From Armatimonadota bacterium (lineage in GTDB: Bacteria; Armatimonadota; Armatimonadia; Armatimonadales; Armatimonadaceae), in assembly GCA_026392155.1 (NCBI GenBank), contig JAPLCP010000076.1:1-58738 (forward strand): a stretch of 58,738 nucleotides of DNA, read 5' to 3'. The notes beneath the pieces are model-generated. The model was not told the DNA's origin and did no database searches. It worked only from the letters and a program-made list of their open reading frames with translations. Below are positions 10,357-56,472 of the stretch, piece by piece (within the stretch, counting starts at the first letter, position 1; every line of letters begins with the position of its first letter). A program made the translations under genes and the position numbers.

Positions 10357-10395
10357 GCATAGACCGCCCCCCGCACGGCGGGGGGCGGTCTATGC
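10357..10395. terminator. Strong bidirectional hairpin between convergent genes
   Basis: A near-perfect inverted repeat: the left arm GCATAGACCGCCCCCC (10357-10372) pairs with 10380-10395, plus one inner G-C pair, leaving a 5-base loop. It begins directly after the stop of the sugar synthase and ends 7 bases from the stop of convergent ychF, so it can serve both. There is no T-tract on either side. Confidence 0.75.
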
Positions 10396-15369: not shown

Positions 15370-16028
15370 GCACACCCCGTCCTTTAACCTTCAAAGTGCG
15401 GGCGCTGGCGGCGACGATTAGCGGTCTCGTGCGCTTGCTGGCAGGCACGGCGCGACTGACCATTGTTGGCGAAGAGGCGGCAATGGCGACGCTGAAGGAG
15501 CACAATGGCGGGATCTTGGTGACGTGGCACGGTCGCACGCTCCTCTCGCTCTACCGCTACCGCAACCGAGGCTACTGGGCGCTGGTCTCGCTCTCCAAAG
15601 ACGGTGACATCCAGGCGCGTAACTTCGAGAGTTTTGGCTACCAGATTGTCCGTGGCTCCACGGGCCGGGGTGGGGCGCGTGCTGCTGTCCAGATGCTACG
15701 CGAGCTAGAAAAAGGCGGCGTCCTCGCCTTCACCCCCGACGGCCCACGCGGCCCCGCCCGAAAAGTCCAGCCCGGCGTCGTCTTCTTTGCCCGGCGCTCC
15801 GGCAAGCCCATTATTCCGCTGATCGCCACTGCAACTCCCCGAAAGCTGCTCACTACCTGGGACGACTACCAGCTTCCCGCCCCGTTCAGTCGCGCCGCCT
15901 GGGTCTTCGGCGAGCCAATTTTTATCGGAGAAGGCGAGTCCGATGAAGACGCCTGCCGACGCGTGGAAGAAGCCCTGAATGCCTGCGAAGCACAGGCAGA
16001 GGGGATGCTGAGCAAACCTACCCCCTAG
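15366..16028 (+). CDS. DUF374 lysophospholipid acyltransferase family protein
   Basis: 220 residues from GTG 15366, overlapping the exporter stop as GTGA. It has WHGRTLLSLYRYRNRG (position of the acyltransferase catalytic His), LVSLSKDGD, the RGSTGRGG segment and FTPDGPRGPARKVQPGVV. These are the hallmarks of the DUF374 branch of acyltransferases acting on lipid A or phospholipids at the inner membrane. The last codons (KPTP, stop) lie in the left edge of a palindromic repeat (16021-16055), so the C-terminus may have been set by repeat insertion. Confidence 0.88.
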   Translation: MSTPRPLTFKVRALAATISGLVRLLAGTARLTIVGEEAAMATLKEHNGGILVTWHGRTLLSLYRYRNRGYWALVSLSKDGDIQARNFESFGYQIVRGSTGRGGARAAVQMLRELEKGGVLAFTPDGPRGPARKVQPGVVFFARRSGKPIIPLIATATPRKLLTTWDDYQLPAPFSRAAWVFGEPIFIGEGESDEDACRRVEEALNACEAQAEGMLSKPTP

Positions 16029-16055
16029 CCCCCGCTCGCCGGGGGACTGGGTTCA
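16021..16055. repeat. GC-rich palindromic repeat, copy A
   Basis: Core CCCCCG-CTCGC-CGGGGG (16029-16045) flanked by CCTAG and ACTGGG. It covers the stop of the acyltransferase gene and lies before the SMI1-like gene. The sequence CCTAGCCCCCGCT is shared with copy D at 31799-31811. It could also act as a transcription attenuator. Confidence 0.7.
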
Positions 16056-30931: not shown

Positions 30932-31836
30932 GCCTTTTCGCCCTCGTAGTAGACCCAGCGCGCCGACGATTTGAAGACCAGCCAGGTTGCGGCAATTGTC
31001 AGTAGAAATAGCACCCAGGCCATGGCGCAGGCGAGGCCCATGCGGAAGTACTCGAAGGCGTTCTGGTAGAGATAGAGTGCATAAAAGAGCGTGGACTTAT
31101 CCGGGCCACCCTTGGTCATGAGAAAGGTCTGGGTGAAGTACTGGAACGTCCCGATGACACCTAGGATTAAGTTGAAGAAGATCACCGGTGAGAGCGACGG
31201 TAGCGTGATGTGGCGCAGGCAGTGCCAGCCGCTGGCACCATCCAGCTCGGCGGCTTCGTAGTAGTCTTGCGGGACACCTTGAAGCGCAGCCAGGTAGATC
31301 ACCATGCTCCCCCCGACACCCCAAAGATCCATGAGGATGATCGCAGGCTTTGCCCAGAGCGGTGAGGCGAGCCAGGTGGGAGTGGGGATATGGAGCGTTC
31401 GTAGCGCTTCGTTAATCAGCCCGTGCTCGGGGTTGAGCAGCCAGAGCCAAAGCATAGAGCTGGCGACCGTCGGCACCAGCGCCGGCACGTAGAAGATCGT
31501 CCGAAAGAGCGCCATGCCCTTGAGCTTCTGGTTGAGCAAGAGCGCCAGAGCCAGTCCAAGTAAGAGTGAGAGGGGTAGCTCCAAAAACAAAAACGCCGTG
31601 TTGCCTAGAGAGGGCCAGAAAGTCTCGGTGTCGGTGAAGAGCTCTTTATAGTTCTCCAGCCCCACCCAGCGCGGCGGTGAGAGCACGCGGTAGTCCGTGA
31701 AGCTGAGGTAGAGCGTCGCGAGGACGGGGCCGATGGTAAAGACCAAAAGCCCGATGAGCCAGGGAGCGAGGAAGAGGAGGGCCACCCCCCCATCCCGCCT
31801 AGCCCCCGCTTGGCGGGGGTACAAAGAAGAGCTCAT
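30928..31836 (-). CDS. Sugar ABC transporter permease, MalF type
   Basis: 302 residues, six membrane helices, EAA loop DYYEAAELDGASGWHCLRHI then TLPSLSPVIFFN. It partners the MalG-type permease downstream (ATGA overlap) and the binding protein upstream (ATGA overlap). The cytoplasmic N-terminus (about residues 5-18, YPRQAGARRDGG) is coded by palindromic repeat copy D, so the tail before the first helix appears to be of repeat origin. Confidence 0.93.
   Translation of the reverse strand: MSSSLYPRQAGARRDGGVALLFLAPWLIGLLVFTIGPVLATLYLSFTDYRVLSPPRWVGLENYKELFTDTETFWPSLGNTAFLFLELPLSLLLGLALALLLNQKLKGMALFRTIFYVPALVPTVASSMLWLWLLNPEHGLINEALRTLHIPTPTWLASPLWAKPAIILMDLWGVGGSMVIYLAALQGVPQDYYEAAELDGASGWHCLRHITLPSLSPVIFFNLILGVIGTFQYFTQTFLMTKGGPDKSTLFYALYLYQNAFEYFRMGLACAMAWVLFLLTIAATWLVFKSSARWVYYEGEKA
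31787..31820. repeat. GC-rich palindromic repeat, copy D (permease N-terminus)
   Basis: Core CCCCCGC-TTG-GCGGGGG at 31803-31819, preceded by CCCCCCATCCCGCCTAG. It is close in sequence to copy A. It lies within the first 20 codons of the MalF-type permease and is translated. Confidence 0.75.
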
Positions 31837-33077: not shown

Positions 33078-33120
33078 ACCCAAGTGCGCAGATCAGACAA
33101 GGCTTTTATTGCGGAGTGCA

Positions 33121-33155
33121 TTGACGCTGATACGGGTAGCGTCTACAATAGAGCC
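33121..33155 (+). promoter_or_regulatory. Full -35/-10 promoter, leaderless, before ATG 33156
   Basis: TTGACG at 33121-33126, a 17-base spacer, TACAAT at 33144-33149, then six bases (AGAGCC) and the ATG. This is the only leaderless site in the window with a good -35, and it supports reading the hexamers elsewhere as -10 elements. Confidence 0.8.
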
Positions 33156-36041
33156 ATGACCTCAACGATGCATGGTAAGCTTGCTGTTTTTGGACTCGCT
33201 GCCCTGATGAGCATGGCCGCGCTTGCTGCGCCACAAAGGCCAGAGCTGGTGCGCTTCAACCGGGATATTCGCCCGATCCTCTCAGACAACTGCTTTGCGT
33301 GCCATGGCCCCGATAAGAACAAGCGCTCGGCGAATCTGCGGCTCGATCAGCCGAATCGTGCGGTGGTTGCGGGCGATATTCTGGCAAGTGAGCTGGTGAG
33401 CCGTATCAATAAGCCTAGCGACGATGCCTTACAGATGCCCCCAAGCACGTCGCATAAAAAGCTAACGGCAGAGCAGAAACGGCTTCTCATGCGCTGGATC
33501 GGCGAGGGAGGCAAGTATGAGGGGCACTGGAGCTTTGGCCCCCTCGCCCCCACGCGTGGGGGAAGCATTGATGGGTTAATCGCCGCACGCCTCACCAAAG
33601 AGAAGCTTGCGCCAGTGCCACTGGCGGATAAACGGACGCTGATCCGGCGGGTGTCGCTGGATGTCACGGGGCTGCCCCCGAAGCCCGAGCGGGTTGCGGC
33701 GTTTGTGGCAGATTCCCGGCCCGATGCCTATGCGAAACTGGTGGACGAGCTACTTGCCTCGCCGCACTACGGCGAGCGCATGGCGGTGCCGTGGCTCGAT
33801 GCAGTGCGCTATGCCGATACGGTGGGCTACCACGGCGACCAGAACATGAACGCATGGGCCTACCGCGACTGGGTGATTGAGGCGTTTAATGCCAACATGC
33901 CCTTTGATCGGTTCACAAAAGAGCAGCTCGCCGGGGACTTATTGTCAAACCCTACCCCCAGCCAGCTCACGGCGACGTGCTTCAATCGTCTGAACATGGT
34001 AACCCGTGAGGGGGGAGCGCAGCCGAAAGAGTATCTCCACAAGTACGCCACGGACCGCGTCCGCACGGTGGGGATGGCGTGGATGGGGCTCACCACAGGC
34101 TGTGCCGAGTGCCATGACCACAAGTTCGACCCGTTGACCCAGCGGGATTTTTACTCTTTGGCGGCATACTTCGCCGACGTGAAACAGTGGGGCGTCTATG
34201 CCGACTATGGCTACACGCCCAACCCCGACCTGCGGGGTGTCAACAACGACTATCCGTTCTTTCCAGAAATTACTGTCGAGAGTAAGTATCTCAAGCAGCG
34301 AATTGCCCAGCTCCAGGGCCAGATCGAGAAACTTGCCGCGCCGCTCTCCATAAGCCAGAGCTGGCTTGGCGCGATGAACTCCTACTACCAGGCCAACCCC
34401 GATGGCTGGGAGAGCGACGAGAAAGTTGTCGTGACAGGTGCTAAGGCGACCGATGTGGTGCGGACACTCTCGCCCCAGCAACGCGCAATTGCGAGTGTGC
34501 GGCTGGAGCTTTTCCCGATGGAGGGGAGCCTTTTTCGTAAAGGAGTGCGCTCGGAGACGGTGATGCTGAATCTGGCGGTGATGGGCAAAGACGGTAAGCT
34601 GAAAAATCTCGCGGTTCGACATGCCGCCGCCAGCGCTTTTGAGCCCACCTACCGCAACTCGTTTGCCCTGCTCGGGGTGCAGCGCGGTTGGAAGCTGGTC
34701 GGAAGTCAGGCAACCGTCCCCCAGGCTGCTGTCTATCGTTTAGAGAAGCCCGTCACCCTGACCGACGGCGAGACGCTTCGGGCCACTCTGCCAAGCTGCG
34801 ATCTGGCAAGCTTCCAGCTGAGTACATCACCACTCGTGCCCCGCAACCCCGATGGTCTCACTCTCCCCGATAAAGCCCTCACGCCACGTGACTACCTCCT
34901 CGCGACAGCAGATGACGCCGAGGCATTTACCAAAGCGAAGGCGCTGGAGGCCGAGATTACGAGCTATCGAGGTGGCCAGACTCCCGTGATGGTGACTGAG
35001 AAGGCAAAAACGCCACTGACCATGCGCATCGTCCCCCGTGGCAACTGGCAGGATGAAACCGCGCCCGTCGCAAACCCCGCAACCCCTGGGTTTTTACCGA
35101 AACCAACTCAGGGAACCCGGCTAGAGCTTGCCAACTGGCTGATGGACAAGAGCAACCCTCTTACCTCACGGGTTTTTATCAATCGACTCTGGAAGCACTT
35201 CTTTGGCGTCGGGCTCTCGCCTAGCATCGAGGATCTCGGGGCACAGGGCGAGCCGCCGACCTACCCGGAGCTGCTTGACACGCTGGCCGCTGACTTTCAG
35301 CGCGACTGGAATGTCAAGCGGGCCGTGAAGCAGCTCGTGCTGAGCGAGGCGTATAGAAGGTCGTCGGTGATGAGCGCGGCGCAGAAACTAAAAGATCCGC
35401 AGAACAAGCTCTGGGCATCACAGAACCCACGGCGGCTGGAGGCGGAGTTCGTGCGCGACAATGCGCTGGCCATCGCGGGGCTGCTGAATCCGTCGGTGGG
35501 CGGCCCACCTGCAATGCCCTACCAGCCCGAGGGCTACTACGCCCCATTGCAGTTCCCCGACCGCAGCTATGTCGCGGATAAGAGTGACTCACAGTGGCGG
35601 CGTGGGGTCTACATGCACTGGCAGAGGACGTTTCTGCACCCGATGCTCGCCAGCTTCGATGCCCCCAACCGTGACGAGCCTTCGTGTACGCGAACGCTTG
35701 CCAACACGCCGCAGCAGGCCCTGACGCTCCTCAACGACCCCGAGTTTGTGGAGGCGGCGCGGGTCTTTGCGGGGACTCTAAAAGCCAAGATCGACGATGC
35801 CAAGCTCACCGAAATTTATCAGCGGGCACTGGCACGTGCTCCCAAGCCACAGGAGCAAAAGTCACTGCTGGCTTTCTTAACAAAAGTCCGCGCCGAGTAC
35901 GCCTCCCGCCCCGACGATGCCAAGAAGCTCCTCGCCATCGGCAACAGCCCGGTTCCCATGGGAGACGCCAATGAGCTGGCGAGCTGGGCCATGGTCTGCC
36001 GCGTCGTTCTGAACCTGCACGAGACAATCACAAGGTACTAA
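33156..36041 (+). CDS. PSD1/DUF1549-DUF1553 secreted cytochrome-like protein
   Basis: 961 residues from ATG 33156; the frame is open 72 bases further up, but that runs through the promoter. A signal peptide (about 1-25) is followed by a planctomycete-type cytochrome domain with haem motif CFACH (46-50). DUF1549 follows, holding a second haem-like motif CAECHDHKFDP, then a middle region and DUF1553 near the C-terminus (NRLWKHFFGVGLSPSIEDLG, RRLEAEFVRDNAL). Such proteins are always paired with a DUF1501 protein, which is the next gene here. Their function is not settled; roles in periplasmic electron transfer and sulfated or complex glycan breakdown have been proposed. Repeat copy E lies within (residues about 130-138). 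Confidence 0.9.
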   Translation: MTSTMHGKLAVFGLAALMSMAALAAPQRPELVRFNRDIRPILSDNCFACHGPDKNKRSANLRLDQPNRAVVAGDILASELVSRINKPSDDALQMPPSTSHKKLTAEQKRLLMRWIGEGGKYEGHWSFGPLAPTRGGSIDGLIAARLTKEKLAPVPLADKRTLIRRVSLDVTGLPPKPERVAAFVADSRPDAYAKLVDELLASPHYGERMAVPWLDAVRYADTVGYHGDQNMNAWAYRDWVIEAFNANMPFDRFTKEQLAGDLLSNPTPSQLTATCFNRLNMVTREGGAQPKEYLHKYATDRVRTVGMAWMGLTTGCAECHDHKFDPLTQRDFYSLAAYFADVKQWGVYADYGYTPNPDLRGVNNDYPFFPEITVESKYLKQRIAQLQGQIEKLAAPLSISQSWLGAMNSYYQANPDGWESDEKVVVTGAKATDVVRTLSPQQRAIASVRLELFPMEGSLFRKGVRSETVMLNLAVMGKDGKLKNLAVRHAAASAFEPTYRNSFALLGVQRGWKLVGSQATVPQAAVYRLEKPVTLTDGETLRATLPSCDLASFQLSTSPLVPRNPDGLTLPDKALTPRDYLLATADDAEAFTKAKALEAEITSYRGGQTPVMVTEKAKTPLTMRIVPRGNWQDETAPVANPATPGFLPKPTQGTRLELANWLMDKSNPLTSRVFINRLWKHFFGVGLSPSIEDLGAQGEPPTYPELLDTLAADFQRDWNVKRAVKQLVLSEAYRRSSVMSAAQKLKDPQNKLWASQNPRRLEAEFVRDNALAIAGLLNPSVGGPPAMPYQPEGYYAPLQFPDRSYVADKSDSQWRRGVYMHWQRTFLHPMLASFDAPNRDEPSCTRTLANTPQQALTLLNDPEFVEAARVFAGTLKAKIDDAKLTEIYQRALARAPKPQEQKSLLAFLTKVRAEYASRPDDAKKLLAIGNSPVPMGDANELASWAMVCRVVLNLHETITRY
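33541..33565. repeat. GC-rich palindromic repeat, copy E (inside PSD1 gene)
   Basis: A perfect 16-base palindrome CCCCCACGCGTGGGGG at 33547-33562 with CCCTCG before it. It is read in frame as part of GPLAPTRGGS. Confidence 0.7.
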
Positions 36042-56044: not shown

Positions 56045-56060
56045 CCTACGGCTGTAAAGC

Positions 56061-56089
56061 CCGTGCCGGGCTAATTTAGCCCGGCACGG
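56061..56089. terminator. Bidirectional hairpin between protease gene and rnpB
   Basis: Perfect 14-base inverted repeat: CCGTGCCGGGCTAA (56061-56074) and TTAGCCCGGCACGG (56076-56089). It lies between the protease stop (56044) and the 3' end of rnpB on the opposite strand, so it can end both transcripts. Tails are not T-rich. Confidence 0.75.
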
Positions 56090-56097
56090 AATCTGTT

Positions 56098-56472
56098 GGA
56101 GTGGGCCTATAAGCCGGGTTCTGTGTTTGTGTGGTCATCTATCTGCGACGCACGTTACCGTGCGCCTCTTGCGGTCTACCGGAAGGCTCCGCGAGCCGCC
56201 TCAACACCTTCCTTTGACCTTGCTTCGAGTGGGGTTTGCCGGGCCGGTACGTCACCGCACCGCCGGTGCGCTCTTACCGCACCATTTCACCCTTACCACC
56301 CTCCTCCCTGGCCCTCCTCCCAATTCTGGGAGGAAGGGGAAGGGGGTGGCGGTATCTTTCTGTTGCACTTTCCGTCGGGTCACCCCGCCAGGCCGTTAAC
56401 CTGCACCCTGCCCTGCGAAGCCCGGACTTTCCTCAGGCAGCTTACGCCCCCTGCGACCACCCGTCCCACTCC
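56098..56472 (-). ncRNA. rnpB: RNase P RNA, bacterial type A
   Basis: About 375 bases on the minus strand. Ends were set by the P1 helix: GGAGTGGG (forward 56465-56472) pairs with CCCACTCC (forward 56098-56105). Conserved cores are at the right places, given as forward complements: GAGGAAAGTCCGGGCT (56419-56434), ACAGAAA (56357-56363), GGTAAGGGTGAAA (56285-56297), AGATAGATGACC (56133-56144) and ACAGAACCCGGCTTAT (56109-56124). It is the catalytic subunit that matures tRNA 5' ends. The variable P12 arm is formed by palindromic repeat copy J. Frames reading across it on the plus strand are artefacts. Confidence 0.95.
56301..56349. repeat. GC-rich palindromic repeat, copy J (P12 arm of rnpB)
   Basis: Inner hairpin TCCTCCCA-ATTC-TGGGAGGA at 56315-56334, with CCTCCCTGGCCC before and AGGGGAAGGGGG after. 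It occupies the P12 position of the RNase P RNA, between the ACCGCC and GGTAAGGGTGAAA cores. Confidence 0.75.

Follow-up and report, generated by a model that had tools for sequence, protein, structure and literature searches.

The P12 arm of the RNase P RNA of one Armatimonadota bacterium is, as judged from its sequence, a copy of a hairpin repeat dispersed through the bacterium's own genome. The gene lies in a 58,738-nt stretch of DNA, the whole of which we refer to as the window, from a genome of 4.77 Mb in 228 contigs (G000); we name the repeat REP_A, and a relative of the same genus is designated G001. An Rfam search returns rnpB as the sole RNA gene in the window, at 56,094–56,472 on the minus strand, with a full-length match to the class A RNase P RNA model (RF00010; 281.1 bits, model positions 1–367) and a conserved core; a single copy of rnpB was found in the genome. 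The original prediction, that a complete rnpB core carries a dispersed palindrome as its P12 arm, is borne out on both points, the second by a near full-length copy of a repeat with 127 pattern matches genome-wide.

The arm is placed by Rfam alignment and folding at about 56,294–56,353 (minus strand), lengthened into a long hairpin to which the alignment assigns 34 inserted nt, palindrome included. Its apex is the central palindrome of the REP_A copy, TCCTCCCA-ATTC-TGGGAGGA (56,315–56,334); these 20 nt, TCCTCCCAATTCTGGGAGGA, occur once in the window, where 0.01 occurrences are expected with up to 3 mismatches. Folding of the RNA likewise yields an extended P12: the 60-nt arm is predicted to form one long hairpin at −44.6 kcal/mol, and the 57-nt arm reaches −38.8 kcal/mol, compared with −19.5 ± 3.1 when its letters are shuffled (lowest of 500, −31.7). 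The extended arm would presumably take up this hairpin fold in vivo.

Alignment with 29 genomic copies defines REP_A as a unit of roughly 50 nt, ACCCTCCTCCC(C)NNGCCCCTCCTCCCAATCCTGGGAGGAAGGGG followed by a purine-rich tail. The repeat extends beyond the palindrome first reported: the P12 copy spans about 56,298–56,346 on the plus strand, with a C-rich head (3' in the RNA), palindrome, and G-rich tail, and is a near full-length member whose loop is altered to AATTCT. Allowing up to 3 mismatches, the pattern CCCTCCTCCCAATCCTGGGAGG has 63 + 64 = 127 matches in the whole G000 genome, corresponding to slightly fewer loci because perfect palindromes count on both strands, and none in a reversed control. 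The same pattern has one match in G001, one in G006, and none in the seven remaining genomes of the family that we searched; eight matches occur in G014, a member of the same order, nearly all with three mismatches. By these counts, REP_A is restricted in lineage. Many copies elsewhere in the genome form opposite-strand pairs 40–130 nt apart, the architecture of a REPIN, while the P12 copy is a single unit rather than an inverted pair, and no second copy was found within the window. With its high copy number in one genome and its predicted single-strand hairpin, REP_A is REP/REPIN-like. A scan of 30 REP_A-bearing or related loci for other RNA genes found only one tRNA, directly upstream of one copy.

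The arm has low sequence complexity, C-rich facing G-rich, and could in principle have grown locally by C-rich/G-rich slippage, its likeness to C/G-rich palindromes of the genome being coincidental, and many long P12 arms do exist without dispersed copies. Against this, a 91-base query has 72 matches in G000, the best beyond itself at E = 9.5e-12; near-identical copies, at about 90% identity over 45 nt, are present at tens of loci genome-wide, with none in the reversed control; and agreement extends to the loop and spacer, whose letters are non-repetitive. We consider slippage strongly disfavoured and exceedingly improbable, and read the arm as a REP_A copy.

P12 arms of close relatives

Outside P12, rnpB of G000 and G001 is 95.0% identical (304/320), and other family members stand at 84–88%. 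P12 itself varies widely in length, from 17–19 nt in G003, G005, G009, and G010 (and similar in G011) through 30 nt in G007 and 50 nt in G002 to 100 nt in G006, with C/G-rich repeat arms of 57 nt in G000 and 51 nt in G001. The first reading of the sequence had made shared descent of this P12, with nothing similar elsewhere in the relatives' genomes, the finding that would overturn it; P12 is not common by descent, as G001 carries another repeat there and the tips of G003, G005, G009, G010, and G011 are short and empty.

The G001 arm contains CCTGCCCCCCCCCAGCCCCCGCTCGCGGGGG, which resembles a second repeat, REP_B (CCCCCYAGCCCCCGCYYGGCGGGGG), with 132 matches in G001, 123 in G000, and 0–1 in the rest of the family. 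Searched by BLAST against its own genome, the G001 arm has one match only (1.6e-4), and we therefore treat this case as resting on weaker evidence. An alignment of the two arms brings 39 of 49 letters into agreement at the cost of 10 gaps, which says little, since both are C runs against G runs; their orientations are opposite (REP_B head 5' in the RNA of G001, REP_A head 3' in that of G000), and their loops differ. The simplest reading is that the arms represent two independent occupations of one site. Alternatively, the ancestor of G000 and G001 may already have had a P12 repeat, in which case recombination with a different repeat of the genome would later have converted or replaced one arm. 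The similar length and C/G-rich composition of both arms would fit such a history, as would the presence of REP_B in both genomes; the single REP_A match in G001, the opposite orientations, and the different loops speak against it, and we consider it unlikely. The genomes compared include no strain in which P12 is empty and rnpB identical; insertion is therefore deduced from a comparison of species that differ by at least 5%.

REP_B copies also occur at gene ends within the window, at 16,021–16,045 and 31,795–31,819; the latter supplies N-terminal residues (about 6–14) of a 302-aa ORF. A further palindrome in the window, a perfect 18-bp inverted repeat whose loop is 3 nt, lies at 10,357–10,395, flanked by two convergent ORFs, and may be a terminator.

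Repeats in RNase P RNA across lineages

We searched the P12 arms of 27 genomes of the phylum, each against its own genome. Clear dispersed copies were found for six arms (G000, G006, G060, G022, G020, and G234), with a different sequence in each and 14 to 33 own-genome matches among the matches listed, a range that includes both-strand palindrome matches and thus corresponds to fewer loci. Counting G001, on its weaker evidence, 7 of the 27 arms are unrelated, genome-specific repeats. The other 20 gave none or one weak own-genome match (G002, G027, G028, G036, G037, G042, G059, and 13 further members of the phylum, the weak match being in G213). With P12 removed, rnpB of the seven genomes matches only itself, bar a short partial rnpB duplicate in G020, so P12 is the place of the repeats within these genes. 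Short partial duplicates of rnpB ends were seen elsewhere in the genome at G020:C48:40701-40757 and G281:C28:19981-20056. At G234:C32:26372-26463 (L248), the P12 arm consists of a palindrome, CTCCTCCAGGTAAGGTACCTGGAGG, that matches its own genome about 30 times, in some cases in tight arrays.

Further afield, pattern scanning of a single genome from each species yielded at least 80 rnpB loci with P12 arms of 65–95 nt. For 27 such long arms from many phyla, taken in order, we found no own-genome copies at E ≤ 1e-4 (up to 11 candidates scored per genome). Since none of these 27 unselected arms had such copies, a long P12 alone is not evidence for repeats, and long P12 arms do not generally show the phenomenon. 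Own-genome repeats were clear in 3 of 9 long arms chosen by eye, a choice from which no frequency can be derived: those of a Nitrospirae bacterium (L143), a Candidatus Brocadiaceae bacterium (L147), and a Desulfobacterales bacterium (L160). The same dispersed repeat lies in both P3 and P12 of the L143 gene (2187–2665), and in both P9 and P12 of the L147 gene (3078–3638). Such additional positions favour tolerance of peripheral hairpins over a rule confined to P12.

Two other accounts of this recurrence deserve consideration. Repeat-built P12 arms recur in several lineages as long, stable hairpins, which might mean that long P12 hairpins are selected, the repeat having been recruited to stabilise the RNA or bind a protein. 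Yet separate lineages have unrelated sequences in the arm, congeners have different ones, several relatives manage with a P12 of 17–19 nt, and a passage of PMC2858038, citing cyanobacterial work, notes P12 as sometimes dispensable; we judge recruitment for a function very unlikely. The presence of unrelated repeat families in the same arm across several lineages could also mean that insertions are aimed rather than just tolerated, the P12 hairpin being a preferred DNA target of single-strand transposases that move repeats; Y1-type transposases, which act on single-stranded hairpins, are present in G000. If so, P12 extruded as a single-stranded hairpin would attract transposases, and this would account for the recurrence of unrelated families in it across phyla. 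However, most REP_A copies lie elsewhere than in P12, and P3 and P9 (in other groups) as well as protein linkers are occupied too, as tolerance predicts. Targeting of this kind therefore strikes us as improbable, if somewhat less so than recruitment, and tolerance of repeats at peripheral positions remains our preferred reading.

Protein hosts, proposed mobilisation, and precedent

The gene for a 1025-aa PSCyt1-PSCyt2-PSD1 protein elsewhere in the genome (G000:C129:49862-51607, L230) contains two in-frame copies of REP_A: at residues 129–144, directly before PSCyt2 (145–350), and at residues 688–710, at the start of PSD1 (710–969). The idea that one element occupies both RNA and protein genes is upheld by this gene, though not by the palindromes in protein genes of the window, which we rejected as copies of the P12 element because they belong to a REP_B-like family. 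One REP_B-like stretch (33,539–33,563) encodes residues 152–160 of the window's own PSCyt2/PSD1 protein (ORF 33,084–36,041), in which PSCyt2 begins at residue 162; it occupies the linker that matches the pre-PSCyt2 linker holding REP_A in the protein described above. The protein linker, like P12, thus hosts different repeat families in different genes. Placement of REP_A beside protein domain borders suggests that RNA and protein hosts follow one rule, occupation of peripheral positions compatible with the fold. Rickettsia palindromic elements (RPE) are said to lie in frame in protein genes at positions that the fold tolerates; REP_A shares the in-frame placement, but has another sequence, belongs to another phylum, and also has RNase P RNA as a host.

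Very probably, then, a REP-like repeat spread in this species' lineage, landed in P12, and was tolerated there. A short, non-autonomous, REP/REPIN-like hairpin would have multiplied in the lineage, and one copy would have entered the tip of P12. Being nearly self-complementary, its transcript would form a hairpin that stacks on what is left of the P12 stem, which would leave the ribozyme core unchanged and allow the insertion to be tolerated. Copies arriving in conserved parts of rnpB would be removed by selection, and P12 would act as a recurrent landing site, where repeats enter, persist, and may differ between sister species. On this account, the repeat is probably kept by tolerance rather than benefit.

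REP and REPIN elements (PMC3116915, PMC2817692), which REP_A resembles as a short hairpin with more than 100 copies, often in inverted pairs, are also the basis for supposing that REP_A may be mobilised by a transposase acting in trans, perhaps a Y1/IS200-type enzyme. REPs are extragenic by name, whereas REP_A also occurs within genes, one for an RNA and one for a protein. Y1/IS200-type transposase (Y1_Tnp) matches occur at three places in the G000 genome, one of them broken; the two intact proteins score above the cut-off of the IS200/IS605 model and only below that of the RAYT model. These loci are flanked by other hairpins, one kind being AAAGCCCG...CGGGCT; a hairpin of the same kind, AAAGCCCGTGCCGGGCTAATTTAGCCCGGCACGG, lies directly 3' of rnpB at 56,056–56,089 in the window. 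No RAYT gene flanked by REP_A was found at the three Y1_Tnp loci. We therefore describe REP_A as REP-like rather than as an established REP of a RAYT.

In cyanobacteria, STRRs (short tandem repeats) reportedly make P12 longer, bear no relation to one another even among close strains, and are dispensable for activity in vitro. The present case is alike in that genome repeats lie inside the RNase P RNA gene, at the P12 position, and differ between close relatives. It differs in that REP_A is a single dispersed hairpin unit rather than a tandem repeat, occurs in another phylum, and is also found in frame in a protein gene. The original prediction called this a case independent of the cyanobacterial one; it is not unique, recurring as it does in other lineages. 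Repeats within rnpB of heterocystous cyanobacteria are the subject of Vioque (1997, NAR 25:3471), a paper cited by title in PMC2858038. In the literature searched, we found no report of dispersed REP-type repeats in rnpB. The finding broadens the known precedent of cyanobacterial rnpB repeats to a wider taxonomic range.

An essential ribozyme has been repeatedly invaded by its host's own hairpin repeats, mostly in the same peripheral arm and in several bacterial phyla, and the occupant of P12 can differ between sister species. Occupation by repeats helps explain why P12 is unalignable between species, and it now supplies natural insertion variants for testing the role of P12.
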